Shown here piece after piece: positions 49,593 through 64,000 of a stretch of 64,000 bases of DNA. Numbering within the stretch: position 1 is the stretch's first letter; the number at the start of each line of letters is the position of its first letter. The notes below the pieces were generated by a model. It saw only the letters and a list, made by a program, of their open reading frames with translations. It made no database searches and had not been told where the DNA came from. Source of the stretch: an uncultured Clostridium sp. (lineage in GTDB: Bacteria; Bacillota_I; Bacilli_A; RF39; UBA660); assembly GCA_946414595.1 (NCBI GenBank), contig CAMKPE010000002.1:44992-108991 (forward strand), written 5' to 3'. A program made the position numbers and the translations under genes.

Positions 49593-51809
49593 TTATTTCT
49601 TATTTAATGCTTCATCTATTTTCTTAATAAGAGCATTATATCCATCTTGAGTTAAATGAATATTATCAAAAGATAAATAATTACTATTATTAAACTCTTT
49701 AGAAAAATCAATTATATGAACATTTTCATTTTCAATTTTTAAAGAATTAACACTTACTATATAAATATTATGATCTTTACATAATTCAATTAATTTTAAA
49801 TATTCATCTTTAGATATATCAAGTGTCTTATCAATTAAGATAACAACATTATATGAAAGTGTTTTATTATCTATTTCTTTCTTTAATCTATCATATAATT
49901 TTTTATAAGTTAATTCTTCATCAGATATAAAGTTTGCTGTTTGATATTTCTTACTTAATTCTTCGTACGCTCCAATTAATAAGTCATTACCAACAAACGT
50001 AATCTTTTGTTTTAATTTCTCTTCATGTTCTTTTATCTTTTCTTCTTTTTGCTTTTGAAACTCTTTTAAATAATCTTGATAAATAGCATTATAAATTGTT
50101 TCTGCATATACTTTGCATCCTTTAACGGTTGGATGTACTTTATCATAAATTAAGTATTCTGGGTGGTCTTTTACAACACTTATCCAGTCAATTATATGAA
50201 TATTTGGATGTTTCTTAGCAAATGCGATCAAGTTTGGATTAAAACTTGCATAGTCAGGATTAGTAGCATTTAACCAGTATACCTGTCTATCTCCAATTAC
50301 TTCCATATACTTTTCTTTGCAATCAGCAGAACACTCACCATTAGTACCAAGATTTATAACAATTATATCTGGAAGCATTCCTTTATCATCTAAATCTTTT
50401 AATATTTTATATAAAGAATGTTCAGTTCTATTAACTACTGCATCAAAATAACCATTAGGGAAAGTCTTATATAAATCTTTAACAGCAAGTTCCATAACAG
50501 AATCACCAATACCTACTATTCTAAGATTTCTAACTACTTCCTTAAGTTTTTCTTCATCAGCATCCATATCTTCTAATAGTTTTTCCCATTCATCTTCTTC
50601 ATTCTTCATGCTTTCTAAATATTCTTGTTGTTTTTGCTCAATTAATTCACTATTAGCCTTCAAATCATTTTCAAGCTTCTTCATATCATTTGTATAATCA
50701 GGTGTAATAATAAATTTATATAATCCATATGAAGAAAATCCAAGTACTAAAATAGTTAAGATAACTCTAAGAACTTTAAACTTCATCTTCTTAGTAAGAC
50801 TATGTGATAAATGAACAATTATTGAAATAACTATTGTTAAGACTACAGTTAAAACAATCTTAAGAATATTATTCATCTCAAATTCTTGCATAATAAATAT
50901 TACAGGATATTGTACTAAATATATTTCATAACTAATCTTAGATATTGGAGACAATAATTTATTAAATACTTTATTGTTATATTCTTTAATAGAAAAATTA
51001 ATGATTAATATACTTACAATTGTAGTAATCATCATACTTGCGATGAATAATGATGACTTAACATCAACAAATACGAACATTACTATTAATCCAATAGATA
51101 ATAAATAATATATCAACTTATTTATTAAATTATTTTTAAATGTAAATGGATGATAGAAACTATGAATGAACCCTAAAAGAAGTCCAAATACAAGTGAAAA
51201 AGAACGAGCTAATGAATCATAATATCCAACCATTAAGTTTCCTTGATCAACCTTCATATAAAAGTATCCAAAACTTAATACTCCTAAGATAAATAATAAA
51301 ATACAAGGAATAAACTTCTTAGTCTTCTCACCAAGTTTTCTAAAGAATATAAATATAAATGGAAATATAAGTTCAAATTGTAATAGAATTGCTATATACC
51401 ATAAATGCATAAATGGCGAAGCAACATGTCTTACAAAATAATCTAAATTAGCATTCAACTGCCAATAATTGTTGTATCCTAAAAATACTGATATTGATTC
51501 AGGCTTCAAATTAATCCAGTTAATACTAGATATAAATGATATTGCACCAATAGTAATAAGTGCGACTATCAAAAGAGGTAAATAAATCTTCTTTAAACGA
51601 CTTAAATAATAATCTTTAAAAGAAAACTTTTTATTTTTAAATCCTGAAATAACGGCTAAATATCCGCTCAACGCAAAAAAAGAACATACAGCAAGATATC
51701 CTCCATCTAATATATTTAGATGATATAAAAATACTGATATCAAGAGCATTATTCTAAATAAATAAAGATATTCATAATGTTTCTTTTTCACACTACCACT
51801 ACCATTCAT
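49593..51809 (-). CDS. OatA-like O-acetyltransferase with two SGNH domains
   Basis: 738-aa protein. Residues about 12-370 are an acyltransferase-3 domain of ten or more TM helices (family His in FLYHLN). A charged helical linker follows. SGNH domain 1 (about 430-575) has IGDSV, LGTNGE and YDKVHP. A second SGNH-like domain (about 600-735) keeps FDNIHLT but has GND instead of GDS, so it is probably inactive. Likely O-acetylates peptidoglycan or another wall polymer. An extended -10 TGT-TATAAT ends at 51814, so ATG at 51809 would be nearly leaderless; GTG at 51791 is the alternative start. Confidence 0.88.
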   Translation of the reverse strand: MNGSGSVKKKHYEYLYLFRIMLLISVFLYHLNILDGGYLAVCSFFALSGYLAVISGFKNKKFSFKDYYLSRLKKIYLPLLIVALITIGAISFISSINWINLKPESISVFLGYNNYWQLNANLDYFVRHVASPFMHLWYIAILLQFELIFPFIFIFFRKLGEKTKKFIPCILLFILGVLSFGYFYMKVDQGNLMVGYYDSLARSFSLVFGLLLGFIHSFYHPFTFKNNLINKLIYYLLSIGLIVMFVFVDVKSSLFIASMMITTIVSILIINFSIKEYNNKVFNKLLSPISKISYEIYLVQYPVIFIMQEFEMNNILKIVLTVVLTIVISIIVHLSHSLTKKMKFKVLRVILTILVLGFSSYGLYKFIITPDYTNDMKKLENDLKANSELIEQKQQEYLESMKNEEDEWEKLLEDMDADEEKLKEVVRNLRIVGIGDSVMELAVKDLYKTFPNGYFDAVVNRTEHSLYKILKDLDDKGMLPDIIVINLGTNGECSADCKEKYMEVIGDRQVYWLNATNPDYASFNPNLIAFAKKHPNIHIIDWISVVKDHPEYLIYDKVHPTVKGCKVYAETIYNAIYQDYLKEFQKQKEEKIKEHEEKLKQKITFVGNDLLIGAYEELSKKYQTANFISDEELTYKKLYDRLKKEIDNKTLSYNVVILIDKTLDISKDEYLKLIELCKDHNIYIVSVNSLKIENENVHIIDFSKEFNNSNYLSFDNIHLTQDGYNALIKKIDEALNKK

Positions 51810-51854
51810 TATAATTATAACACAAACAAAAAAAATATCTTATAAAGATTTACT

Positions 51855-52100
51855 TTATAAGATTTTTTTATGTGCAGTAATAATAGTATAGCTATAAGAA
51901 TTAACTGTAATAACAATATTATCTATACTACAATACCAATTCTTACCTTCTTTATAAATATTACAATTATTATCTAATATTTTATTTTTACAGTATAATA
52001 CAACGTCTTCATTAATTTTAAGATTTTTTTTAATTCTTGTAATACCCATTTCTGTTGTGTGTAATTTATCTAAATTATCTAATAATATTTGTTTATTCAT
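51855..52100 (-). CDS. DUF3781 family protein
   Basis: 81-aa protein. NLDKLHTTEMGITRIKKNL, then DVVLYCKNKI, KGKNWYC-like and VNSYSYTIITAHK match DUF3781, a small family of unknown function common in Clostridia and Bacilli. Begins directly after the GNAT stop codon upstream, so the two are coupled. No signal or TM. Confidence 0.82.
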   Translation of the reverse strand: MNKQILLDNLDKLHTTEMGITRIKKNLKINEDVVLYCKNKILDNNCNIYKEGKNWYCSIDNIVITVNSYSYTIITAHKKIL

Positions 52101-52604
52101 TTATGTTATGTCCTTTGCATAATAATCTACTTTTATTTTAGTTCCATCAGGATACTCTTCTAATTCACTTTTTATATACTCATTAAATCCATATTTAGAA
52201 TATATTGCTCTATTTCTTTCTTCTTCAGGTTCAACACCTAAAGTTGCCCTTTTATATCCCCTACTTTTTAAGTCTTCCATCATAAATTTAAATAGTTTTG
52301 AAAAATATCCTTTATTATGATATCCTTCATTAGTTCTAAAGGCATAGAGATAAACTGTTTTATCATCGATTAAACCATCACTATTTTGAACAATTGAAGG
52401 ATCAAGTGCAGCAGTTGTTTCACATATTATTTCATTATCTAAAACACCACAATAAGTTACAGATAAACCATTCTTAGTTCTATCAATTGCTTTTTCTTTC
52501 CAGATAATCCAGTTATCTTTATCATCTATTGCATTTTCTATTTCATAATCATATTTCTTAATTACATCATCAAGAGTTGCAATCTTACAAATATAATCAC
52601 CCAT
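52101..52604 (-). CDS. GNAT acetyltransferase
   Basis: 167-aa GNAT N-acetyltransferase. Acetyl-CoA-binding motif A is seen as YLYAFRTNEGYHNKGYFSKL (the Q/RxxGxG/A position is NKGY) and motif B as LGVEPEEERNRAIYSKYGF. Substrate unknown; small-molecule amines or protein N-termini are usual. SD AAGGAAG. Starts the run of accessory genes on this strand. Confidence 0.87.
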   Translation of the reverse strand: MGDYICKIATLDDVIKKYDYEIENAIDDKDNWIIWKEKAIDRTKNGLSVTYCGVLDNEIICETTAALDPSIVQNSDGLIDDKTVYLYAFRTNEGYHNKGYFSKLFKFMMEDLKSRGYKRATLGVEPEEERNRAIYSKYGFNEYIKSELEEYPDGTKIKVDYYAKDIT

Positions 52605-52645
52605 AATATCACTTCCTTTTTTTCAAATAATAATTATTACTTATA

Positions 52646-53872
52646 TTAACTATTAAATATTAAAAGAAGATCAAAATATTTTCCAATAAGAATAAGTACA
52701 ATTAAAGATAAATTAATCATAATAAGTAATAATATATGTTTAGTTTTTTCTTGAACTATATTTGCAGCAAATTCTCTAATCAAAGCATTAGTATAGTAGT
52801 ACCATTTTGTTTTACTTCCCATACCTTCACAATTAATACCTTGTTTATTTGCTATAGCACCACTTCTAAATACATGATAATTAGTTGTCGAAAAACTAAT
52901 CTTTGCATTTTTATTAATTTTATCTATCTTTTCTTTTGAATATTTCATATTCTCAATAGTACTTGTAGATTTATCTTCTATTATTATTTGTTTTTCTTTA
53001 ATTCCCTTTTCTAGTAAGTATTTCTTAATTGCTTCTGCTTCTGCAATAACTTCATCATTACCTTTACCACCAGATGGGACATATACTATTTTCTTCTTAG
53101 TTAGTTCGTATTGCTTATTACCAAAATCAATCGCTTTATCTACTCTTCCTTTCAATAAAGGAGTTAAAGTTCCATCATTTTTTATTCTGGCACCTAGAAT
53201 AATTATGAAGTCTTTATTGTACTTTGGTATATGTCTTGCAGCCCTTATATTGCAATAAAGAGTAGCAATAATTAATGTATAGAAATATGATAAAGATGCA
53301 TTAATACATATATCTAACGTGAATTTCAAAGCCTTCATATCATTTCCTAATAAAAATCTTGAAACAATATAATATAATGTTTGACTTCCAAATAATCCAA
53401 AAATAGACAAGAATCCAAGACCTACACCTAACATTCTTCTTGGATCAAATCCTTCTTTCTTTATAAGAATAAAGTTTGTAATAATACTATATAAAGAAAG
53501 AATTAAAATACACGGAAGAGTTAACATTGCAAAATAAGAAAATGATCTTAAAGTATTATTATAAATATCTATAATATTTAACTCATTCCAATTAACAATT
53601 AATAGATTTATTTGTCTTATAATATTTACGTTAATAAAAATCAATAATCCTAAATTCATTATTATTCCATAGGAATACATTTTCTTTTCATATTGTCCTT
53701 TAATATAGAAAGAACAACCTACGGATATTCTAATTAAAAATAATATCAGGATTATTTGAATAGACTTACTTAATTCAACATTATTAGATAAGTCAGTTCT
53801 AGATAAAATACTAAGAGAAACTATAATAAATAATATAGTTATTATCAAATAAATAATACCTCTTTTTTTCAT
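52646..53872 (-). CDS. YdcF/ElyC-like (DUF218) membrane protein
   Basis: 408-aa protein. Six or so TM helices in residues 1-215, then a DUF218 domain starting KDFIIILGARIKNDG, with YVPSGGKGNDE, EDKSTSTIENM and FSTTNYHVFR as the usual blocks, and a last TM near 385-403. DUF218 proteins such as ElyC and SanA act in envelope carbohydrate metabolism. The multi-TM N-terminus is the Gram-positive form. No operon partner is clear. Confidence 0.88.
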   Translation of the reverse strand: MKKRGIIYLIITILFIIVSLSILSRTDLSNNVELSKSIQIILILFLIRISVGCSFYIKGQYEKKMYSYGIIMNLGLLIFINVNIIRQINLLIVNWNELNIIDIYNNTLRSFSYFAMLTLPCILILSLYSIITNFILIKKEGFDPRRMLGVGLGFLSIFGLFGSQTLYYIVSRFLLGNDMKALKFTLDICINASLSYFYTLIIATLYCNIRAARHIPKYNKDFIIILGARIKNDGTLTPLLKGRVDKAIDFGNKQYELTKKKIVYVPSGGKGNDEVIAEAEAIKKYLLEKGIKEKQIIIEDKSTSTIENMKYSKEKIDKINKNAKISFSTTNYHVFRSGAIANKQGINCEGMGSKTKWYYYTNALIREFAANIVQEKTKHILLLIMINLSLIVLILIGKYFDLLLIFNS

Positions 53873-53902
53873 AAAGAATTCATCTCCTATCTAAATAATA
53901 TC

Positions 53903-53933
53903 AAAAAAAGATAAACTATAAAAGTTTATCTTA
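53903..53933 (-). terminator. intrinsic terminator of the VanY-type gene
   Basis: Minus strand AAGATAAACT/AGTTTATCTT with an AT loop and T-run. Confidence 0.85.
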
Positions 53934-54578
53934 TTTATTTTCTAAATATTCTTCTAAAGTAAGATTCTTATCCATTATTTCTTTAGCAATTTCAGGATTA
54001 TCAATATATCTTAAGTGCCATGGTTCATAAGAATATCCAGTAATATCATCTTTGTTTTCAAGATATCTTAGTATGAATCCGTGTTTTGCAAGTTTTGCAT
54101 GTATCTTTGCAAATATCTCACGCTCTGCAATCATTTCATCATTATCATAAATTACTTTATCTCCAACAACTAATTTGATATCAAGGGCAAGTCCTGTATG
54201 ATGTTCAGAATAACCTGGAACAGCTACATATTTTCTTACGTATTCTTCACCATATTCCACCATCCAAGTATCCCATAGTTCTTGTTGTGATGCTACGCTT
54301 CTATATGTACTATCAAGTTCAATAACAACTCCATCATTAGCTAAATCTTCTTTAAGTTTTTGATAAGCTTCAGCAGCTTTCTTTTCTACTTTATATGTTT
54401 CATCTAAACCAGTTTTAACATCAACTAATTCAACTTTTTCTTCCCAATCATCAGGTAATTTATTTTGTTTATTTACTAATACTAAATAATCTATTTTACT
54501 CTCCTCTTTCTTTCCACATCCTACTACAGCAATACATAAAATAATTGCTAGGATACTAAATATATATTTTTTTTTCAT
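53931..54578 (-). CDS. D-alanyl-D-alanine carboxypeptidase (VanY/DacB type) lipoprotein
   Basis: 215-aa M15B zinc peptidase that removes the last D-Ala from the stem peptide. Signal with lipobox AVVGC. Active-site blocks: SEHHTGLALDI (two zinc ligands and Asp) and EPWHLRYI (Glu and His); STYRSVASQQEL is the substrate loop. ATG at 54578 follows GGAGGAG; a longer frame is not supported. Makes tetrapeptides that L,D-transpeptidases use, linking it to the enzyme at 42371-43774. Confidence 0.94.
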   Translation of the reverse strand: MKKKYIFSILAIILCIAVVGCGKKEESKIDYLVLVNKQNKLPDDWEEKVELVDVKTGLDETYKVEKKAAEAYQKLKEDLANDGVVIELDSTYRSVASQQELWDTWMVEYGEEYVRKYVAVPGYSEHHTGLALDIKLVVGDKVIYDNDEMIAEREIFAKIHAKLAKHGFILRYLENKDDITGYSYEPWHLRYIDNPEIAKEIMDKNLTLEEYLENK

Positions 54579-54610
54579 ATTTCTCCTCCATAAAAAGTAT
54601 AACACATACA

Positions 54611-55150
54611 TTAAATGTATTTAAGTATTTCTTCAAATTTTGTGTAGCCAGTCTCAGCATTTATATGCCCACCATTTGGTATAATATGTTGCTTATCTGT
54701 AATAGTATCTGCAAATTCTTTTTCAACTTCAAATTTAACATATGGATCATTATCAGAATAAAAACATGTTATATCATCACAGTAGTTTTTAATATCTCCT
54801 AAGTTATCAAGAAACATAGGTTCATTAACTGCATCATATTCCTTATCTATTCCTAAATAGTTATTAAAACCACATACGAATATTAATTTCTTTACTTTAA
54901 TCTTTCTATTAATAAGATATTTGCAAACGAATACTGGTGCGATGCTATGAGCAATGATTGTTGTATTCTCATTAACTAAAAGTTGATCTAATTCTTTAGA
55001 CCAATTATCAAAGTTTTGATTGCCAACACCCACAGGCATTTGAGGTACATCTACTTTATAGTTCTTGTTCTCTAATTCTTTCTTTAACCATGGAAACCAG
55101 TTACCATCACTTGATCCAAAACTTCCATGTAATATTATGTAATTATTCAT
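54611..55150 (-). CDS. RBBP9/YdeN-type alpha/beta hydrolase
   Basis: 179-aa serine hydrolase. ILHGSFGSSDGNWFPWL at the N-terminus (oxyanion region), nucleophile in IIAHSIAP (the usual GHSLG replaced by AHSIA), Asp in SDNDPYV and His in NGGHIN. Small fold typical of RBBP9 proteins. Substrate unknown. Lies between VanY and an orphan gene with no overlap. Confidence 0.88.
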   Translation of the reverse strand: MNNYIILHGSFGSSDGNWFPWLKKELENKNYKVDVPQMPVGVGNQNFDNWSKELDQLLVNENTTIIAHSIAPVFVCKYLINRKIKVKKLIFVCGFNNYLGIDKEYDAVNEPMFLDNLGDIKNYCDDITCFYSDNDPYVKFEVEKEFADTITDKQHIIPNGGHINAETGYTKFEEILKYI

Positions 55151-55188
55151 ACTATCGCCTCTTAACTATTTAAAATATACCATACAAT

Positions 55189-55213
55189 TAAAAAAAGTAG
55201 AATATCTACTTTA
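55189..55213 (-). terminator. intrinsic terminator
   Basis: Minus strand AAAGTAGA-TAT-TCTACTTT followed by TTTT at the stop codon of the orphan gene. Confidence 0.82.
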
Positions 55214-55837
55214 ATTTAATTCTTTATTTGGAGATTCACCTTTATATATTGTTTTATCTCTAATAACAACTTCATCAGCTGCAACACATACTACTGTCTT
55301 AAATGGAAATATAAAATTACTAAGAGATAATTGTCTTTTTACTTCATCTAATAAACCATATGGTTCGTAATCAACAGATAAGAATATATGCTTTTCTCCA
55401 CGACCACCAAATCCTTGTAATTCTTTTTCTTTATGTTGAAGTTCTTTAATTACTCTACATAAAAGATAAGTTCTAAATGGTAATTGTTTTTCAGCAGGTA
55501 ATCCTCCTTTAGCTGTTAACATTTCAGTTATATCTCTATTTACTCTTTCATTAGGATAATCATTATATTCTCTTAATTCTCCGTCACCAAATGTCATTTC
55601 ATCTGCTAACCATTCTGTTGCTGCATGTGCTGGAGCAACATATGGGTTATCAAGTGCTAAAAGAGCATTATACAAATCTTGCCAAGAAGCATCTTTAGGA
55701 ACTTTGCCTTCAAGAAACTTAACAACTTCCATTCTTGCTTTTTCCATTCTTATTTCTTCTTCAGTTGCAGTATCAGGAAGTCCTAATTCTTTTAAATCAT
55801 CTTCTCTACATTTTTTTAAAAATTCATTTAAGTCCAT
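55211..55837 (-). CDS. hypothetical protein, family not recognised
   Basis: 208-aa soluble acidic protein. Helical N-terminus (LKKCREDDLKELGLPDTATE) with DnaJ-like spacing TATEEEIRMEKARMEVVKFL, then a central WQDLYNALLALDNPYVAPAHA, then a C-terminal part with IFLSVDYEPYGLLDEVKRQL. No catalytic motif I can name. No signal or TM. GAGGTG precedes the ATG. Flanked by single-gene units, so context gives no clue. Confidence 0.65.
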   Translation of the reverse strand: MDLNEFLKKCREDDLKELGLPDTATEEEIRMEKARMEVVKFLEGKVPKDASWQDLYNALLALDNPYVAPAHAATEWLADEMTFGDGELREYNDYPNERVNRDITEMLTAKGGLPAEKQLPFRTYLLCRVIKELQHKEKELQGFGGRGEKHIFLSVDYEPYGLLDEVKRQLSLSNFIFPFKTVVCVAADEVVIRDKTIYKGESPNKELN

Positions 55838-55896
55838 CGTAACACCTCTATTTTAATTATAATATTTAATTAATTACTATATCAAGAAAAAACTTT

Positions 55897-56997
55897 CTAT
55901 TTTACATTTAGCTTATCAATTTTCTCTAAGAATTCATTAGAGTATTTATACCATTTATAAAGGGCTTTTTTTCTTTCACTATATTTCTCTAATTCTTCTT
56001 CAGTATAATTAGTAATCTTTTTATATCTTTCTATTGTTCTGTGATAACAATTATCTATACAAGTTCTTATTACAATTAAAGTACCCTTTAATAAACTTAT
56101 ATCTTTAATACAATGAAACTGAGCACAATCAATTACTATAGTCTTATCGTATTTCTTAGTAAATTCTAAAATCTCTTTATATATTAAATCAAAGTCATCA
56201 CCACAATTAGGCATTTCTTTATATTTACTTCTAAAGTACTCTCCTAACTCTTTACTAATACCAGTTGCTTCACTAAATCTCGAATCAGAGAATATATCAT
56301 CAGTATCAATAACTAAACAATCACAACCATTAAAATGTTCTTTAGCATACGTAGTCTTACCAGAACCAGATTGACCAGTTAAATTAATGATTTTATCATC
56401 ACTTAATTTCTTAATATATGGTTCTTTATCAATAAACAAATTAATAACTACACCACTTTTAATTTCTTCTAATACTTCTTTAACTTTGTTATAACAGTCA
56501 TAATCTACTTTATGCCATGGTTTAATAGAAGTATTAAACTCTTCTAATGCTTTATCTATATTGTTTAAATCTACTTTATCTTTAATAATTTTTAAAGCAA
56601 GATCATAATAACCTCTTGAAGATAATAACCCAATACATTCAAAGTAAGTTGTTAAAGGTAATTTTGACTTATTGTAGAAATCAACTAACATTTCTTCTGA
56701 AATAGGAACTGGATTATTTAAAATAATTTTATTAGCTACTATTATTCCTCCAGGAGTCTTATCATTTCTAACTTCAAGTACTTCTCCATCATCAGGTATT
56801 TCTACTTCATATAATGTATCTCCTCTAGACATCCACCTTAAAGCACATTCTTCATTAGTAAAATTAAATCCTCCTCTTTTATCCCAGTCAGGATTAGTAG
56901 GATCCCATTTATCACATGTAACAACTTTTCCTATTTCATATTCGCTTGTATCATTGTTATTTATCTTTTTCCCAAAGACCCATTTTAAATACTTCAT
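55897..56997 (-). CDS. P-loop kinase-like protein with unknown N-terminal domain
   Basis: 366-aa protein. Residues about 1-95 form a beta-rich domain with KWDPTNPDWDKRGGFNFTNE and GDTLYEVEIPDDGEVLEV; about 95-205 is helical; about 210-366 is a P-loop kinase domain with Walker A GQSGSGKTT, DTDDIFSD, IVIDCAQFH (Walker B-like) and an Arg-rich lid RTCIDNCYHRTIERYKK. Similar to small NTP kinases that phosphorylate nucleosides or RNA ends. It lies three bases behind a nucleotidyltransferase-like gene. Confidence 0.78.
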   Translation of the reverse strand: MKYLKWVFGKKINNNDTSEYEIGKVVTCDKWDPTNPDWDKRGGFNFTNEECALRWMSRGDTLYEVEIPDDGEVLEVRNDKTPGGIIVANKIILNNPVPISEEMLVDFYNKSKLPLTTYFECIGLLSSRGYYDLALKIIKDKVDLNNIDKALEEFNTSIKPWHKVDYDCYNKVKEVLEEIKSGVVINLFIDKEPYIKKLSDDKIINLTGQSGSGKTTYAKEHFNGCDCLVIDTDDIFSDSRFSEATGISKELGEYFRSKYKEMPNCGDDFDLIYKEILEFTKKYDKTIVIDCAQFHCIKDISLLKGTLIVIRTCIDNCYHRTIERYKKITNYTEEELEKYSERKKALYKWYKYSNEFLEKIDKLNVK

Positions 56998-57000
56998 AGT

Positions 57001-57399
57001 CTATATTCCTTCATTATCTTTATTTTTTTCAAGAAACTCTTTTACTATTTTAATCTTTTCTTGATCTTTTGGTCTATTATTCTCTATCATCCATTTAAGT
57101 TGTAACTCAAGGGACTCAACTGGATAATTATCTACATATCTTATATCTTCTTCTTTATAATCAAGTACTGCTACTTCAGTAGATTCATCCAATTCATACA
57201 AATATGGATATTTAGGAGATTTCTTAAACTTAAATCTTTCTTTAAGTTCTTCAAAGTAATTAGGTCTAACTTTTATATCTATATCTTCGGTACTTTCTTT
57301 TAGACCATATAAAAGCATAACACCACCAGATATAATACAATATCTATTTTTATCTAGTTTTAATGACTCAAGTTTTTCTATGTATTCTTTTTTATTCAT
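57001..57399 (-). CDS. nucleotidyltransferase-like protein (MNT/AbiEii fold)
   Basis: 132-aa protein with GGVMLLYGLKESTEDIDIKV: the GG...DxD pattern of minimal nucleotidyltransferases of the MNT/DUF6036/AbiEii type, followed by a helical tail with a Lys/Glu-rich end. Such proteins transfer NMP to proteins, tRNA or antibiotics, and many are toxin-antitoxin parts. Immediately upstream of the P-loop kinase-like gene and just downstream of a flavodoxin-like gene. Confidence 0.75.
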   Translation of the reverse strand: MNKKEYIEKLESLKLDKNRYCIISGGVMLLYGLKESTEDIDIKVRPNYFEELKERFKFKKSPKYPYLYELDESTEVAVLDYKEEDIRYVDNYPVESLELQLKWMIENNRPKDQEKIKIVKEFLEKNKDNEGI

Positions 57400-57400
57400 A

Positions 57401-57961
57401 TTAATTTCCTTTCAAAATATGGTCTACTGCTCTATCTATTTGATTATCTAAACCTTTATCATCACTTACTGAAACATTATTTGTATTTAATGAATATATA
57501 TAGTTTTTATCTAAATCAAATTCCGCATTTAATTTTCTAAAAATTCTCATGCATATTTTAACTGCATCATCAGGTGATCCATCACCACCACCAACAAGTA
57601 TCAATATTCCCTTTTTCTTTTTCATTGTAGTTGTAATATTCATAAAATGTTTATTGCTATACATGAAATTAAATCTAGTAAATATTGAGAATAATGGTGG
57701 CGTTACATATGACATATATATTGGAGATGCAATAATTACAACATCATAGTCATCATTATGTATTAACTCCATTTTATCTTTAATAGAACATCCAACATGT
57801 TCCCAACAGTATCTACAATCCATACAAGGTTTTATATCATCTTGATATGCATTTATTGTAGAAAATATTGTATCACTTGGATATTTATCTTTAACTTTAT
57901 CAATGATATATGTTGTATCTCCCTTAACACGTGGAGAACCATTCAATATTAATACTTTCAT
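57401..57961 (-). CDS. NADPH-dependent FMN reductase / flavodoxin-like protein
   Basis: 186-aa flavoprotein. VLILNGSPRVKGDTTYI at the start binds FMN phosphate; CMDCRYCWEHVGCSIKDKM gives a CxxCxxC...C cluster as in iron-sulfur flavoproteins; VVIIASPIYMSYVTP contacts the flavin ring. Role in redox defence or quinone reduction is possible. ATG at 57961 follows AAGGTG; a longer frame adds three codons. Confidence 0.9.
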   Translation of the reverse strand: MKVLILNGSPRVKGDTTYIIDKVKDKYPSDTIFSTINAYQDDIKPCMDCRYCWEHVGCSIKDKMELIHNDDYDVVIIASPIYMSYVTPPLFSIFTRFNFMYSNKHFMNITTTMKKKKGILILVGGGDGSPDDAVKICMRIFRKLNAEFDLDKNYIYSLNTNNVSVSDDKGLDNQIDRAVDHILKGN

Positions 57962-58135
57962 TATATACACCTTTCCAATTAATTATTATACATATAAATC
58001 TTACCATAAATATATTTAAATTGCCATTTCCATATCTAAAAAAATAAAAAGTAAGGCTGTTGTAAAAAGTCTTGCTTTCACTTGATAACTATAAAATTTT
58101 ATAATAAACAAAAAGTATAAATAAGGAGTGATATT

Positions 58136-58898: not shown

Positions 58899-59654
58899 TT
58901 ATTTTTTTATATGATATATTGTCGTTAAATTATTTTCTTTTTCATGATCTTCTTCAACAAATAAATCTCTTATGTATTTAATTTTATTATGTTCTAAACA
59001 TAATTCTAAGAAACATAAAAATATTCCAATATCAATTTGATTATAATATATAACTCTATCCTTAGGCATAATTCCCCTTTTGCCTTCTTTACGATATCTA
59101 TATACTTTTATTTCTTTTTCACTTGCTTCTACTTTCCATGGTTGAGTATTACAAGCACTTGGAGCAAATCTAACTATATTTGCAATATCTAAGTAATTAT
59201 CTCCAGTCCATATTTCAGATAATTCTTTTCTTTTACTCTTAAACATATCTTTTCTAAATTTATCTTCTGAATCTACTTTGGCTATAGCAATCATAATAAC
59301 AAAATCTAAGCCATCTAATTGCTGTTCATCTGGTTTACCTATTCCAAACCAAAGAGTTCCTATATTTTTGGAAACTAAATATAAATCTAATTGTTCACCT
59401 AAATAACCTATATTCTGTAAATAATTATCCTTTTTTTCAGAATAGAATAAAATGCAATATTCTTGGCCTCTTAGAATAGATTTCTTTTTTACAATTTTAA
59501 TTTTTACTTTAATATCATCTACTAAAGATTTTAATTTTGAGAATTCTTTTTCAATATCACTTAGTTCTTCTTTAGTAATATGTTCATGACCAATATTTCT
59601 AAATAAATGAAAAGATTTTCTTTTAAATATCATTTCATATAATTCTTTATTCAT
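58899..59654 (-). CDS. nitroreductase-family-like protein
   Basis: 251-aa protein. FAPSACNTQPWKVE is the classic nitroreductase FMN-binding block, here located in the second half; the N-terminal FKRKSFHLFRN matches the start motif RRSxRxF, and GYLGEQLDLYLVSKNIGTLW the dimer/FMN helix. It may be a tandem or permuted nitroreductase (TdsD/TM-like). Substrate unknown. Follows an unrelated APH-like gene by about 50 bases. Confidence 0.8.
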   Translation of the reverse strand: MNKELYEMIFKRKSFHLFRNIGHEHITKEELSDIEKEFSKLKSLVDDIKVKIKIVKKKSILRGQEYCILFYSEKKDNYLQNIGYLGEQLDLYLVSKNIGTLWFGIGKPDEQQLDGLDFVIMIAIAKVDSEDKFRKDMFKSKRKELSEIWTGDNYLDIANIVRFAPSACNTQPWKVEASEKEIKVYRYRKEGKRGIMPKDRVIYYNQIDIGIFLCFLELCLEHNKIKYIRDLFVEEDHEKENNLTTIYHIKK

Positions 59655-59706
59655 ATTAATTGTCTCCTATTACTTATCTCTTGTACATATTTCATATAAT
59701 AATGTT

Positions 59707-60567
59707 TTATTTTTCATAATCTTCTTTATCAATTTTATTTAATATATAATATAATTCTTTTTTCCAACGTTTAATATTCTTATCAATTATATTATTATCT
59801 ATTATTCCATGAAGCTTAGCAAAATTGTTTATTTCTTTTAAACATAATATTACACCATCAATATATACTTCTTTATTATTTACTTTTAACTCATCAAGGA
59901 TGTCTAATGAATGATTTGCTTTACTAAACATTAGGAAGTACATCAAATCATAATATTCTGGCATATATGATATGTATTCCCAATCAATAAATTTAATTTT
60001 TCCTTTATCTAGCATTATATTGGTTGGTATTAAATCTCCATGTGATGTAACATTTGTTTTTGATTCCATAGTTAAGATAGAATAAAGTGATTTAATCTTT
60101 AAATATATGTTTTTAGAAATATAATCTTTTGATCTTTCTAGATATTTACCTAGTTTATCTTTTCTGCTGTAATTATTTTCTAATTCATAATTTATTTTAA
60201 TATTTTTAATATTGAGAACACTATTAGCAATTTCAAGCCTATTACTATGAGATAAATGCATATTATAATTATTTCTTTGACTACTTAGTATCTTACCATT
60301 AATCTTTTCTAATACTATTAAACAGTAATCACTGGATATATAAGAATCTACTAATTTTGGTATTAATTTATTATCCCTATTATTCTCATATAATCTACTT
60401 TCTTTTACTAAATTATTAAAAAATAACTTATCAGTATTTTTACCTACCTTAGCAAAATATTTATCGTTAATTATATTATCTCTTTGATTTTTTTTTAAAG
60501 AATTTTCTATCTTGCAAATATCTTTATCATCAAAATATTTTTTTAACACATAAATAACTTCATTCAT
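59707..60567 (-). CDS. aminoglycoside phosphotransferase / choline kinase-like enzyme
   Basis: 286-aa kinase-fold protein. Catalytic loop VTSHGDLIPTNIML (HGDxxxxN) and metal loop IKFIDWEYISYMPEYYDL (Asp) are intact, while the N-terminal Gly-rich region is poorly conserved. Could phosphorylate choline, an amino sugar or an antibiotic. It is just downstream of the first repeat-linked gene on this strand. No closely coupled partner. Confidence 0.82.
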   Translation of the reverse strand: MNEVIYVLKKYFDDKDICKIENSLKKNQRDNIINDKYFAKVGKNTDKLFFNNLVKESRLYENNRDNKLIPKLVDSYISSDYCLIVLEKINGKILSSQRNNYNMHLSHSNRLEIANSVLNIKNIKINYELENNYSRKDKLGKYLERSKDYISKNIYLKIKSLYSILTMESKTNVTSHGDLIPTNIMLDKGKIKFIDWEYISYMPEYYDLMYFLMFSKANHSLDILDELKVNNKEVYIDGVILCLKEINNFAKLHGIIDNNIIDKNIKRWKKELYYILNKIDKEDYEK

Positions 60568-60601
60568 ATATAATCACCTAAGTAACTTCATTACTACTCT
60601 T

Positions 60602-61090
60602 TCATTTATTTATAACTAACTCATAATCAATATATTTGCCTGAAAAAGGTGTATCTTTATTATCTCTTTTTCCTATTTTTTTAAATCCAACACTTTCATA
60701 ATTTTTTTGTGCAGGAACAAATATTTCATTAGTAGTAACTATTATTTTTTTTAAGTTGTCATATTCTTTAATTCTTCTAATAGCTTCTTCAAGCTGTATA
60801 TGTCCATAACCATTTCCTTTATAATTAGTTAATATACAATTATGCCCAATTTCAACATAATCTGGTCTATGCCTTGGATCCCATGATATATGTCCAATTG
60901 GTTCACCATCTAATACAGTTACAAAGGAGTATTGATTTGCTATTTCTTCATTATCATATAAAAAATCATCATATTCTTTCCAAGAAGTATCCCATGTTTT
61001 ATTACATTTATCATTAAATGAATATGCATCCACTAGTTGATTATATAATGTACCTTTTGAAAAGTTACTTGGCTTTTTAAATTCTATCAT
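60602..61090 (-). CDS. GNAT acetyltransferase (last gene of the cassette-like array)
   Basis: 162-aa GNAT enzyme. Motif A ILTNYKGNGYGHIQLEEAIR (GNGYGH for QxxGxG/A), then KNYESVGFKKIG (motif B). ATG at 61090 follows AAAGGAG; the frame extends to a GTG at 61117, which lies inside repeat A and is not likely used. No palindromic element follows this gene, so it marks the left end of the array. Confidence 0.87.
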   Translation of the reverse strand: MIEFKKPSNFSKGTLYNQLVDAYSFNDKCNKTWDTSWKEYDDFLYDNEEIANQYSFVTVLDGEPIGHISWDPRHRPDYVEIGHNCILTNYKGNGYGHIQLEEAIRRIKEYDNLKKIIVTTNEIFVPAQKNYESVGFKKIGKRDNKDTPFSGKYIDYELVINK

Positions 61091-61103
61091 TTTATCTCCT
61101 TTA

Positions 61104-61228
61104 TAATAAACAGACACTCTCGCAATTGGTTGTATCAGTGTCAGTACTAAGTGCTCTATCCTTGTTTCAGTATCAGGAATATTTCCTAGTTATGAAACTC
61201 CCCTAGTTGTTTGCGTATTAGTGCTAAT
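61104..61228 (-). repeat. palindromic intergenic element A
   Basis: Fills the gap between two genes. Plus-strand order: box 1 (ATAAACAGACACTCTCGCA, 61105-61123), a spacer, hairpin GTTTCA...TGAAAC with inner AGGAA/TTCCT (61164-61198), then TTTGCGTATTAG (61210-61221). CGCA of box 1 pairs with TGCG of the end. Nine mismatches and no gaps against element D over 117 bases. Ends 14 nt before the next start codon. Confidence 0.85.
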
Positions 61229-61233
61229 TTATA

Positions 61234-61656
61234 TTATTTAATTAGTTCTAAATTACCATCAATAATAATTGGACTAAATCCTTCTATTTCATCATATAGC
61301 ATACCATTAGGAATATCATTATATAAATATATTTTTTTACCTAATCTAAATGCATCATACATTTCCAAGAATGTAGCTCCTCCGATATAGTTTTTTAATA
61401 TTTTTCCTTCTTTTTCTTTATCTAGATTTAATACTAAAACTGCATCCATATTTGAAATTGTATCTTCACTTTGTTTGTACATTGCTGCTTTAAATTTTTG
61501 ATGTTCTTCTGCTCCTAAATCCCATGCTTTTTGTTCAGCAGTTGGATCATCATAACAATTTGGTAAGAATACTTCAATATTTTTCTTTTCTAAGTTATTT
61601 TTAACTTCTTCTATTTTTGAATAAAACTTTTTACTACATATTATTAATATTTTCAT
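61234..61656 (-). CDS. nucleoside 2-deoxyribosyltransferase-like protein (array cargo)
   Basis: 140-aa Rossmann-like protein. ILIICSKKFYSKIEEVKNNL at the start and YIGGATFLEMYDAFRLGKKI match the PF05014-type fold (nucleoside 2-deoxyribosyltransferase and related sugar-nucleotide enzymes), with the usual Asp in NMDAVLVL. Catalytic residues are not all certain. Flanked by element B upstream and A downstream. SD AAAGGAG directly follows element B. Confidence 0.75.
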   Translation of the reverse strand: MKILIICSKKFYSKIEEVKNNLEKKNIEVFLPNCYDDPTAEQKAWDLGAEEHQKFKAAMYKQSEDTISNMDAVLVLNLDKEKEGKILKNYIGGATFLEMYDAFRLGKKIYLYNDIPNGMLYDEIEGFSPIIIDGNLELIK

Positions 61657-61671
61657 TTTTATCTCCTTTCA

Positions 61672-61724
61672 ATGATTGGGATTGATTCGCAGTGAGTTAT
61701 ATCAGTGTTAATGCTTAGTCAAAT
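61672..61724 (-). repeat. palindromic intergenic element B (short, collapsed form)
   Basis: Only about 53 bp. It keeps ATTCGCAGTGAG, then TTATATCAGTGTTAATGCTTA, as in the first third of A and D, but lacks the central hairpin and the second end. A deletion between the direct repeats TCAGTGCTAA and TTAGTGCTAA of an A/D-like element would give this form. Box 1 is degenerate. Confidence 0.7.
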
Positions 61725-61726
61725 AT

Positions 61727-62275
61727 TCATTTTTTTAATTTTGAATAATTTGCTATTTGGCAATTGCCTAATACTAGTCCTGCATCTACTAACGATCCCT
61801 CTGGGATATTATTATTAAAATAGCAAGCCACAGGAATACTAACTCCCCCATGAGCAACTATTAACACATTTTTATCTTTATATTTATTATTAATTTCATC
61901 TAAAAAAGCATATATTCTTTTAAAGAATTCTTGAATATTCTCAGCTCGTTTATATGTGTCGTTTTTGTAATAATTCCAATATCCATAAAAATCAAAGTCT
62001 TTAGTTTCTTTTCCTTCAAATTCTCCAAAATCTCTTTCTATAATTCTATCATCATATATAATTGGAATATCCCTATCTCTATTTATTATCTCGGCAGTTT
62101 GTCTTGCTCTTTGTAATGGTGAACATATAATAAAATCTAAATCTGTTTCTTTTAAATTTCTTCTTGTTTCTTCAGCTTGCTCTTTTCCATTTTCATTTAG
62201 TGGTTCATCACATCTTCCCATTACTTTTTTTTTAACATTCCAATCTGTTTGACCATGTCTAACAATATAAATCAT
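61727..62275 (-). CDS. histidine phosphatase (phosphoglycerate mutase-like) (array cargo)
   Basis: 182-aa enzyme with the phosphohistidine motif IVRHGQTDWN, Arg/Glu in ERDFGEFEG, and the second His in VLIVAHGGVS. Broad phosphatase or cofactor-dependent mutase type; acts on small phosphorylated metabolites. Stops with TGA. Lies between elements C and B. AAGGAAG follows element C. Confidence 0.9.
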   Translation of the reverse strand: MIYIVRHGQTDWNVKKKVMGRCDEPLNENGKEQAEETRRNLKETDLDFIICSPLQRARQTAEIINRDRDIPIIYDDRIIERDFGEFEGKETKDFDFYGYWNYYKNDTYKRAENIQEFFKRIYAFLDEINNKYKDKNVLIVAHGGVSIPVACYFNNNIPEGSLVDAGLVLGNCQIANYSKLKK

Positions 62276-62289
62276 ATTTTACTTCCTTT

Positions 62290-62420
62290 CTAATACGCAG
62301 ACACTCTCGCAGTGGCTAGACCGTGGGTTTTTGCGTAGTCATTTTTTACATGTTCGTGGGTCTTTGCATGGATATTACCAACAATCTGCCAACCTTGTCT
62401 ATGTGTTATTTGCATAGTTT
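62290..62420 (-). repeat. palindromic intergenic element C
   Basis: Shares box 1 (CTAATACGCAGACACT then CTCGCA, 62290-62311) with D and E, but its centre differs: a direct repeat CGTGGGTTTTTGCGTAG / CGTGGGTCTTTGCATGG and an ending ATTTGCATAG (62408-62417). TAGACC and GGTTGG blocks can pair across the centre. Same placement rule: 15 nt from the next start codon. Confidence 0.8.
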
Positions 62421-62423
62421 GTT

Positions 62424-62918
62424 TTATTGTTTTATATACTCTAATACTTTTTGATAAGGTTTTATATTGCCTTCTCTAAACTCCCCATTTTCAATAAATG
62501 TTGCTATTTCATCTTGTGTATACCATTTAACATTTTCTACTTCTTCTGTTTGCAATGTTAACTTATTAGGATCTATTTCCATTTTTGTATAGAATGTTTC
62601 TAAGAAACAATTTTTAAATAAGACAGTATCTACATATGTAATATCATTTGCTGATACATCTATTCCGAGTTCCTCTTTACATTCTTTTATAACAGTTCCT
62701 AATGCTGAATCGCCATATGTTACATGTCCTCCTGTAGTCGCAATACAAGAATGCCTTGATTTAGACGTTTTTTGTAATAGTAATTCACCTTTTGAATTCT
62801 CAATAAAAATTAAAACAATCATAAATCTTCTATCTTCTGGTAAATCATATTTTTTATCACGACTGACTTTTTCTTCTAATCTATTTTTCTTTTCATCAAA
62901 TACTTGTAAATATTCCAT
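62424..62918 (-). CDS. NUDIX hydrolase (array cargo)
   Basis: 164-aa NUDIX enzyme. Nudix box GHVTYGDSALGTVIKECKEE followed by LG: Gx5Ex7REUxEExGU with Asp at the first Glu position and KEC for REV, so the box is slightly off consensus. N-terminal LPEDRRFMIVLIF and a TSKSRHSCIATTGGH block fit the IDI/MutT-type. Lies between elements D and C. GGAGATAAG follows element D. Confidence 0.88.
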   Translation of the reverse strand: MEYLQVFDEKKNRLEEKVSRDKKYDLPEDRRFMIVLIFIENSKGELLLQKTSKSRHSCIATTGGHVTYGDSALGTVIKECKEELGIDVSANDITYVDTVLFKNCFLETFYTKMEIDPNKLTLQTEEVENVKWYTQDEIATFIENGEFREGNIKPYQKVLEYIKQ

Positions 62919-62933
62919 ATTCTTATCTCCTCT

Positions 62934-63058
62934 CTAATACACAGACACTCTCGCAGTGGGTTGTATCAGTGTCAGTGCTAAGTGCTCTAGCCTTGTTTCA
63001 GTATCAGGAATATTTCCTAATTATGAAACTATCAAAGTTGTTTGCGTATTAGTGCTAA
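62934..63058 (-). repeat. palindromic intergenic element D
   Basis: Box 1 (CTAATACACAGACACT then CTCGCA, 62934-62955), hairpin GTTTCA...TGAAAC (62995-63029) with inner AGGAA/TTCCT, end TTTGCGTATTAG (63041-63052). The outer boxes CTAATAC/CGCA and TGCG/GTATTAG are mutually complementary with an 11-nt bulge. It begins 6 bases after the lipoprotein stop. Confidence 0.85.
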
Positions 63059-63064
63059 ATCAAA

Positions 63065-63847
63065 TTATACTTCAATTATTTCATAAGTATTATCCAAGTA
63101 AAAAACAATAATTTGATTTAATCCATTCGGACTATTACCGATAAGACCGACTCCATTACTAATTAAATTATAATTATCACTCATATATTTTATTTCTTTT
63201 GTTGCTGTTTTTGTTTTACAAGAAATGTCTGCATATTTTTCACATTCTGATTTATTTGTGATTTCTTCAACTAATATATAGTATTTATTATTAGTTTTAA
63301 TTAGATTTCCATTTATTGATGATATAAACTTAAAGTCATCTGATTTAGTTATTTCTTCACCATTATATAAATATAATGTTTCTTCTTTATAATATACATC
63401 TCCTAAATCTGTAAATATGCTATTAGGTTCATCAGATTTATAATAAGACATTGGACTAATATAAGTTGAATTACCTCTAGAATACTCAAAAAGAGTATAG
63501 TCACTATCCATGATAAAATTCATATTACCATTTTTCCATTTACCTGCTGACCAAATAATAGTATTTACAGAATGAGACTCATTTGTATTACTATATAGTA
63601 TACTAGGTAATTCTGCCTCTATACAATTTGTATTATTTGAATATATCGAATCCAAATTGTATTCATATAGTTTTCCATTTGAAACGAAAGTGTGTGATCC
63701 AATATTTGATGATTCATGGATTAATGAACAATCAAATGATTTCCTTTTGTTTTCATTTACTTCTTCGGTTTTCTGATCAACTGTATTACTACCACATCCT
63801 GTTAATAATAAAAATACTATCAAAATAAAAATTATTCTTTTTTTCAT
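63065..63847 (-). CDS. lipoprotein of unknown function (array cargo)
   Basis: 260-aa exported protein. Signal with lipobox LLLTGC (Cys about 18), then a Lys/Glu linker, then a beta-rich domain of about 220 residues with many Tyr, Asn and Ser. I do not recognise the family; repeated strand-turn patterns (LFEYSRGN, YLYNGEEI) could suit a propeller-like fold. Lies between elements E and D. SD GAGGAG follows element E. Confidence 0.75.
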   Translation of the reverse strand: MKKRIIFILIVFLLLTGCGSNTVDQKTEEVNENKRKSFDCSLIHESSNIGSHTFVSNGKLYEYNLDSIYSNNTNCIEAELPSILYSNTNESHSVNTIIWSAGKWKNGNMNFIMDSDYTLFEYSRGNSTYISPMSYYKSDEPNSIFTDLGDVYYKEETLYLYNGEEITKSDDFKFISSINGNLIKTNNKYYILVEEITNKSECEKYADISCKTKTATKEIKYMSDNYNLISNGVGLIGNSPNGLNQIIVFYLDNTYEIIEV

Positions 63848-63861
63848 AAATTATCTCCTCT

Positions 63862-63995
63862 CTAATACACAGACACTCTCGCAATGAGTGGACACCTATT
63901 CAGGAATAGGTCATCTAACCATGTTTCATATTAAAAAACATGTTCCTATACATAAAACTGCCATGGTTGATTGCGTATTGGGAACAGGTCATTTT
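63862..63995 (-). repeat. palindromic intergenic element E
   Basis: Box 1 as in D (63862-63883). Inverted pairs: CGCAAT with ATTGCG at the ends, CCTATTC with GAATAGG, and AACCATG with CATGGTT (63918-63967). ATCTAAC (63914-63920) matches the RYYYAAC form of an integron R'' site, but the partner GTTGATT does not fit GTTRRRY. Direct repeat GGAATAGGTCAT / GGAACAGGTCAT. The next unit continues beyond the window. Confidence 0.75.
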
Positions 63996-64000
63996 TACTT

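Follow-up and report, generated by a model that had tools for sequence, protein, structure and literature searches.

To our knowledge, integrons are the classic platform on which single genes are collected, and they are rarely reported from Bacillota. Some cassettes do without a recombinase of their own: the dif modules of Acinetobacter and the CTX phage use Xer, and staphylococcal cassette chromosome (SCC) elements without ccr are supplied with the enzyme in trans, SCC insertion taking place at rlmH, a gene with an rRNA role whose end is re-supplied by the insertion. Here, we describe a locus at the right end of a 64,000-nucleotide stretch of DNA (hereafter, the window) from an uncultured Clostridium sp., in which five partly palindromic elements (A to E) alternate with single genes, and which is very likely a tandem array of small-gene cassettes built by the insertion of units, mostly at the rRNA-methylase gene rlmD.

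The same gene, also named rumA, has been described as a place where serine integrases act and the 3' part of the gene is exchanged (PMC4701971). The streptococcal integrative and conjugative elements (ICEs) found at rumA carry a single serine integrase, whose gene contains attR, and they alter the rumA reading frame (PMC4701971). The enterococcal cassette chromosome (ECC) measures 21-78 kb and carries ccrAB (PMC6222049). Among the papers listed in a literature search, none dealt with rlmD cassette arrays.

Elements in the window and in its genome

The window forms the right-hand end of contig C2 in a draft genome of 1.44 Mb (G000; 94.8% complete, contamination 4%). Its last position, 64000, is exactly that of the contig, but the array does not end there. 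The original prediction had described five related elements alternating with single genes of unrelated families on one strand. The alternation was confirmed, on the minus strand: each element lies between two minus-strand genes, the far-side gene of element E being beyond the contig end, and ends 14-16 nt upstream of the next ATG. With element D as query, BLAST retrieved four of the five elements from the genome, namely D itself, A (90% identity, E=2e-51), E (73%, 3e-14) and C (9e-9 over 43 nt); B was missed, and the first match outside the elements had E=0.105. A sequence model (R1), whose training set includes the five elements of the window, found all of them at E<=7e-15, the next match in the window being at 0.17. 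All five are therefore real, although B is merely a short form of ~32 nt. As for the genes, the GNAT acetyltransferase, the histidine phosphatase and the NUDIX hydrolase were recognised by distinct Pfam families, but the deoxyribosyltransferase-like protein and the lipoprotein have no Pfam match.

In the whole genome, the core pattern has four matches, all within the array, and the model has six, corresponding to the five array elements and the end of rlmD. The elements are not scattered repeats, and the search for a genome-wide scatter of the kind seen with miniature inverted-repeat transposable elements (MITEs) or BOX repeats thus left them confined to the array and to rlmD. No Rfam match was obtained for positions 60500-64000.

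Anatomy of the cassettes

Each cassette starts with a junction codon CAY, followed by a spare in-frame RlmD ending, usually one gene, and a tail that runs up to the next CAY. The usual ending is HCES[VI]xxLER[RK]* (the asterisk standing for the stop), and, in the common form, the stretch GAAAGGAGATAA is both the Glu-Arg-Arg-stop of this ending and the ribosome-binding site of the cassette gene. In a second form of cassette, read by eye, the RlmD ending is of a different kind (HVET..., HVEC...) and comes with a terminator and a promoter of its own. A full tail of ~110 nt consists of a unit u1, an imperfect inverted repeat (hairpin) and a unit u2 of 26-27 nt ending at CAY, while short tails, such as element B, are made of u2 alone. 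The u2 units were sorted by eye into six sequence classes (I-VI); tails are conserved in sequence within classes, and over ~110 nt across genera. The cargo families seen are small enzymes and similar.

Among 41 distinct internal junctions (one duplicate record, L288, and the 5' end of the window's cassette 4 being outside this count), an in-frame RlmD-like ending (H-C/V-E...LER-stop or alike) was found at 37, against 0 and 4 in the other two frames, and three of the four junctions without it are one-residue variants. A Shine-Dalgarno stretch, in a loose definition, and a start codon come next at 34 of the 41. The first bases to the right of the 41 tails are CAT in 35 cases, CAC in three and others in three, and the junction mostly reads CAYTGYGA or CAYGTNGA. 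The proposed pairing of outer boxes CTAATAC and GTATTAG holds completely in element D and is absent in B and C. The outer TGCG/GTATTAG box does not belong to the tail of the preceding gene; it is the 5' end of the next cassette, which is rlmD-derived and variable.

rlmD as landing site

The exact core found in four public genomes, TGCGAGAGTGTCTGTGTATTAG, is a coding sequence, which decodes as the C-terminus of an RlmD-type methylase (...DMFPxTYH-CESVCVLER; L042-L045). TIGR00479 identified rlmD (294 bits vs. a cut-off of 183.55), and did so in all three genes checked (G000, G076 and L044). At L042-L044, small genes with tails directly follow rlmD; L045 reaches a contig edge there. In G000 itself, rlmD lies on contig C4, 43 nt from the contig end, running into the start of a GyrI-like gene, and the array is at the end of C2, so that gene and array occupy two contig ends. 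The same break is seen in G155 and G193, and we infer that C4 and C2 join between rlmD and the array.

A model-based search of the window's own genome and its relatives had been suggested together with the original prediction. At the level of the family, the model matched 53 of 291 genomes at E<=0.001, many of these matches being plain rlmD ends. The match region was read in 45 of the 53 (all except G033, G142, G208, G259, G260, G289, G291 and G324), and at least one tail of classes I-VI was present in 17: G000, G002, G028, G076, G106, G119, G148, G152, G155, G174, G191, G193, G230, G253, G264, G269 and G306. With G059 and G060, added from a scan of public contigs, 19 genomes carry tails. In eleven of them, the array starts at rlmD within a single contig (G076, G306, G119, G191, G152, G264, which corresponds to L044, G059, G060, G028, G148 and G230); in G002, one longer unit lies between the two. 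In G106, G174, G253 and G269, rlmD lies outside the stretch viewed. Tails are not always located at rlmD, that of G253 being on a long contig with no visible rlmD near it. In G306, a different kind of RlmD ending (HVETVSVLCRKTIEK*), with a terminator, comes after the first cassette; the same kind of ending sits directly on rlmD in G002. Orphan RlmD-like 3' ends also occur, in G321 (L353:3555-4225) and G186 (L357:1654).

Movement of cassettes between genomes

Cassette units move horizontally. A 351-bp unit with a 68-aa gene (no Pfam family) is found in G076 after a class II tail, in G119 directly on rlmD and in G155 after a class IV tail. These three copies, from three genera, differ at 4-6 positions (98-99% identity), while the RlmD proteins of the same genomes are only 39-44% identical. 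Outside the unit, the left flanks are 47-53% identical and the right flanks 58-64%, vs. 49% (maximum 56%) for unrelated 100-mers, the right-flank value being raised because of the shared RlmD-like ending. The homology extends from CATTG to CATTGC, both breakpoints thus being at the same CAY codon. The 68-aa gene alone, without such ends, is present in G059 and G275.

The same holds for cassette 4 of the window, which is found together with its tail immediately next to rlmD in G060 and behind a class III tail in G002 (86-89% identical, against 48-59% for the left flanks), the RlmD of G000 being 39% identical to that of G060 and 61% to that of G002. Pairwise identity among 16 RlmD proteins (120 pairs) has a median of 41%. 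In a comparison with an identity threshold of 62%, the proteins common to array zones ranged from 62% to 100%. Moreover, left halves (rlmD or the tail classes) and right halves (HCE, HVE or other endings) occur in many combinations, which switch at CAY, and this switch points to site-specific recombination. The comparison with relatives therefore bears out the expected shuffling of gene and tail as one unit, with breakpoints at one fixed spot, and favours the 'new cassette system' half of the earlier interpretation, i.e. a mobile cassette array.

Recombinase genes

Seventeen genomes, among them G001, G030 and G062 with no tail in view, were examined for recombinases. Tyrosine recombinases, mostly Xer-like, are present in all 17, and serine recombinases in 11. 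The ~300-aa tyrosine enzymes form mainly an XerD-like and an XerC-like group (34 rows, with L304 and four loci without protein left out; the deep forks are weakly supported). The genome of the window has seven PF00589 proteins, four of which are Xer-like. Three of its genes (L002, L003 and L004) are XerC-like, two of them divergent, and the extra copies possibly represent admixed DNA of a relative, given the contamination of 4%. Two small contigs, C30 and C32, each carry a tyrosine integrase (L006 and L007, respectively) and, by appearance, a relaxase-like gene, and are likely related integrative mobilisable elements (IMEs); L005 is a 252-aa PF00589 piece on the L006 contig.

Concerning serine recombinases, G321 has a PF07508 fragment 0.4 kb before its orphan RlmD-like end, G220 has a complete 521-aa enzyme ~2.9 kb downstream of rlmD, past one cassette-like unit that bears the motif TATGAAGTAGTCAGTTAYAC at its end (region L370:2300-5420), and in G181 a copy cut by the stretch end lies by a tRNA gene, ~4.4 kb downstream of rlmD. 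This motif precedes the RlmD-like ends of G186, G321 and G220; it is perhaps a seventh tail class, and the G220 gene is perhaps the best lead to the recombinase of the cassettes. Another candidate, a group of ~540-642-aa serine recombinases, most of them preceded by a ~95-aa gene (G000, G001, G076, G119, G191 and G306; cut-off copies in G060 and G181), was rejected, because no cassette-type site accompanies them (47 loci, L362/L370) and because six of the 17 genomes have no serine recombinase.

A probable serine-integrase type of recombination

Of 69 distinct RlmD-like gene ends, 55 have an exact GAYATGTT box at a distance of 21 nt upstream of CAY, where it forms the Asp-Met-Phe codons; ten further ends, including the array heads of G119, G155, G193 and G306, have AATATGTT in its place. 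In the tails, the box fits best at 26 nt before CAY: the six class consensuses (one shifted class IV row being left out) reach a mean of 6.33 out of 8, vs. 3.83 at the next offset, a score not attained in any of 5000 shuffles. For 39 junctions chosen by the core alone, the peak is again at 26 (4.87, next 4.00); it drops to 4.41 vs. 4.24 at offset 58 without the exact boxes and is 4.88 without class I, the shuffles being too lenient for this set since it includes related rows.

In a Listeria integrase, the zinc-domain motif is 5 bp nearer the centre in attB than in attP (PMC3783163). Given the array, and judging by site anatomy, the recombinase is probably of the serine-integrase type: the box is likewise 5 bp farther from the crossover in the cassettes than in rlmD, and, apart from CAY and the Glu codon after it, the two partners have little in common, the intervening codon encoding Cys in HCE-type and Val in HVE-type ends. 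By analogy, the box may be the zinc-domain motif of the att sites.

The best explanation of the array, still incomplete, is likely to be a one-by-one site-specific insertion of units into the 3' end of rlmD by a trans-acting recombinase, probably of the large serine-integrase type. A circular cassette would join rlmD by a crossover inside CAY, and its own right half would rebuild both RlmD and the landing site, since this right half is an RlmD ending; the landing site being rebuilt, the next cassette could enter at the same place. The first cassette would then be read together with rlmD. The enzyme would likely act in trans from a mobile element, as with SCC elements without ccr.

Several observations weigh against this explanation. 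Six of the 17 genomes, all of them drafts (G059, G061, G152, G155, G174 and G193), have no PF00239 protein, and 87 loci with class I-VI arrays or rlmD ends contain no recombinase gene except the G321 fragment. The serine recombinases of G220 and G181 have no cassette-type site beside them, and none was found at any of the 47 serine-recombinase loci searched. As for the box, class I tails, i.e. two of the five tails of the window, fit it poorly (3/8), no mirrored box was seen on the right half of the site, the rlmD copy is also constrained by its codons, and a crossover at CA would put the box a few bp outside the position of the Listeria motif (bp 16-24 in attP; PMC3783163). Moreover, class V consists of one tail and class VI comes from one genome.

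Alternative explanations

The original prediction of a chromosomal integron variant was not upheld. It is very improbable that the array is a true chromosomal integron, or an attC cluster lacking an integrase (CALIN), in a member of the Bacillota and recombines in folded single-stranded form, even though such a reading would account for one-gene units in one orientation on one strand, the inverted repeat of the tails and the shuffled gene content, and even though five of 20 predicted pairs are changed on both sides in seven class III tails. In 13 class I/II tails, however, none of 12 predicted hairpin pairs is changed on both sides, and the hairpin is modest: over 24 tails, the folding z-score has a mean of ~-1.6 for the gene strand (from -4.7 to +0.9) and of -1.5 for the opposite strand. 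The tail sequence itself is conserved within classes, and the proposed outer stem joins a tail to the RlmD ending of the next cassette, holding for some pairs only. The prediction had already remarked on the lack of a clear GTTRRRY core, which the CAY junctions confirm, and it is rlmD that provides the landing site, at its 3' end. As for the expected IntI-type recombinase, none of six Xer-like proteins (four from the window's genome and two from G155; L005, L006 and L007 lay outside this NCBIfam run) passed TIGR02249, with 127-168 bits against a cut-off of 265. A second alternative keeps the rlmD-anchored cassettes but has a tyrosine recombinase move them, namely an IntI-like enzyme since lost or the XerC/XerD of the host with a dif-like site; we consider it unlikely. 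Tyrosine recombinases are the only ones present in all 17 genomes, the six proteins reach 229-259 bits with NF040815 (cut-off 220), a model of XerA type whose description reads 'site-specific tyrosine recombinase/integron integrase', L002 falls below the cut-offs of both XerC and XerD, and an 8-bp core, CATTGCGA, is common to most cassettes and HCE-type rlmD ends. Nevertheless, besides the low TIGR02249 scores, the XerC/XerD models outscore NF040815 in all six. CATTGCGA was rejected as a tyrosine-type overlap, since HVE-type ends (CATGTTGA) occupy the same place and share only CAY and GA with the HCE type, too little for an overlap of 6-8 bp. An action of Xer on a dif-like site was rejected as well: canonical dif was found, once in each of eight of 12 genomes and in seven of these eight within ~5.4 kb of the xerD-like gene on its contig (L346-L352), but the rlmD junction is not specially dif-like, ranking 9 to 641 among ~1200 positions in 14 rlmD genes.

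The units could also be the decayed debris of repeated insertions of ICEs, phages or IMEs into rlmD, with no dedicated cassette system. This is distinctly unlikely, although rumA is a known ICE target (PMC4701971) and the G321 fragment and the serine recombinases of G220 and G181 lie close to RlmD-like ends: a unit-sized 351-bp cassette is shared at 98-99% identity by three genera, tails are conserved over their whole length across genera, and the cargo consists of small enzymes and the like. No phage, plasmid or viral source of the tails was found: one tail used as query had no match in plasmid and phage collections, and six exact tail or core patterns had none in viral contigs. Hardly any weight is left for an interspersed repeat (MITE- or BOX-like) or a cis-regulatory leader ahead of each gene; a partly palindromic repeat does precede each start codon, but the pattern and model matches of the genome all fall in the array or at rlmD, Rfam recognises none of it, and the unit breakpoints are at CAY on both sides. 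What is supported is an integron-like cassette system and not an integron.

Features of the window and cargo of the arrays

The array of the window is detailed in Table 1. The first bases of the element E tail match the tail that follows an isochorismatase gene of G002 (contig C10), and the letters of the 5' end of cassette 1 are those of the rlmD 3' end in relatives. The cassette 4 protein has copies with 88-94% identity in the G060 and G002 arrays, next to other left neighbours, and no relative among solved structures. Beyond cassette 5, the kinase-like gene is 73% identical in G152 and the nitroreductase 78-89% identical in five other genomes, and both are probably older array members that carry no elements. 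Further on, a long run of small accessory genes without elements (49593-57970, minus strand), including a 366-aa protein that is 78% identical in G139 and an 81-aa protein that is 70% identical in G275 (both in array zones of other genera), is probably an old, eroded part of the array.

Table 1. Organisation of the cassette array at the right end of the window, from the contig end inwards
Feature	Position	Strand	Support or remark
Tail class II (u1-hairpin-u2), its gene off contig; element E	63887..64000	-	Alignment A4
Cassette 1 5' end: junction CAT, RlmD-like ending HCESVCVLERR*, ribosome-binding site	63848..63886	-	
Cassette 1 gene: predicted lipoprotein, 260 aa	63065..63847	-	Lipoprotein models far under cut-offs; Pfam none
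Cassette 1 tail, class I; element D	62959..63064	-	
Cassette 2 5' end: junction CAC, HCESVCVLERR*, ribosome-binding site	62919..62958	-	
Cassette 2 gene: NUDIX hydrolase, 164 aa	62424..62918	-	PF00293, E=5e-13
Cassette 2 tail, class III; element C	62315..62423	-	
Cassette 3 5' end: junction CAC, HCESVCVLERK*, ribosome-binding site	62276..62314	-	
Cassette 3 gene: histidine phosphatase, 182 aa	61727..62275	-	PF00300, E=8e-46
Cassette 3 short tail (last unit only, without hairpin); element B	61695..61726	-	
Cassette 4 5' end: junction CAC, HCESIPIIERR*, ribosome-binding site	61657..61694	-	Direct sequence reading
Cassette 4 gene: deoxyribosyltransferase-like (name from the original prediction; no family match), 140 aa	61234..61656	-	
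Cassette 4 tail, class I; element A	61128..61233	-	Near-identical tail after same gene in G060
Cassette 5 5' end: junction AAT (changed), NCESVCLL*, ribosome-binding site	61088..61127	-	
Cassette 5 gene: GNAT acetyltransferase, 161 aa, not followed by a tail	60602..61087	-	PF00583, E=6e-11
Kinase-like gene and TM1586-type nitroreductase, without elements	58899..60567	-	Both in rlmD-array zones of other genera

As for the cargo of other arrays, a 4-kb operon, hydrogenase/NADH-dehydrogenase-like by appearance, lies between junctions in G002 (L167:1901-5993), and cassettes may thus also be multi-gene. ORF6N-type proteins recur in rlmD-array zones (L043:4227-5111; look-alikes at L298:6766-7650 and L275:425-1306); the one tested matches PF10543 and the PADLOC candidate defence family PDC-S05 (E=1.5e-86), and the arrays may carry anti-phage genes. 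The G191 array includes a 692-aa protein with many near-identical repeats (L290:8760-10838), its DNA being partly N.

Significance and comparison with described systems

The chances seem to us evenly balanced that the array is a second, independent kind of gene-cassette system, comparable to an integron but using a serine integrase, with the end of a conserved rRNA-methylase gene as its platform. If so, the front stretch of each cassette would serve at once as recombination half-site, as replacement C-terminus for the damaged host gene and as ribosome-binding site of the cargo. Insertion would be harmless, repeatable and immediately expressed, and the cassette pool would be common to many genera of one Bacillota family. 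This small-genome family appears to trade single genes on hardware other than integrons, which would be a case of convergent gene capture and would explain how reduced genomes gain new enzymes, while the triple use of one sequence would show how a conserved gene can accommodate a cassette system.

Compared with integron arrays, the present arrays likewise consist of one-gene units in tandem, all oriented alike, which have a recombination site at their 3' end and are shuffled between hosts; they differ in having no IntI-model protein, no attI and no GTTRRRY, in tails that fall into conserved sequence classes, and in a landing site that is the end of a housekeeping gene, repaired by the cassette 5' end, with the crossover in CAY. 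With the Xer-using modules they have in common cassettes without their own recombinase, but the site is not specially dif-like. As regards the streptococcal rumA ICEs, the target gene, the crossover at its 3' end with exchange of the C-terminus and the short direct repeats (2-21 bp; PMC4701971) are shared, whereas here the frame is kept at the great majority of internal junctions and no integrase gene was found on the cassettes or at an element end. In SCC and ECC elements, moved by the CcrAB large serine recombinases, the target is rlmH and not rlmD, and the units found here, from 0.35 kb upwards, have one or few genes, no ccr genes being found in the arrays; what both kinds of element share is insertion in the 3' region of an rRNA-methylase gene and the formation of complex elements with more than one att site.

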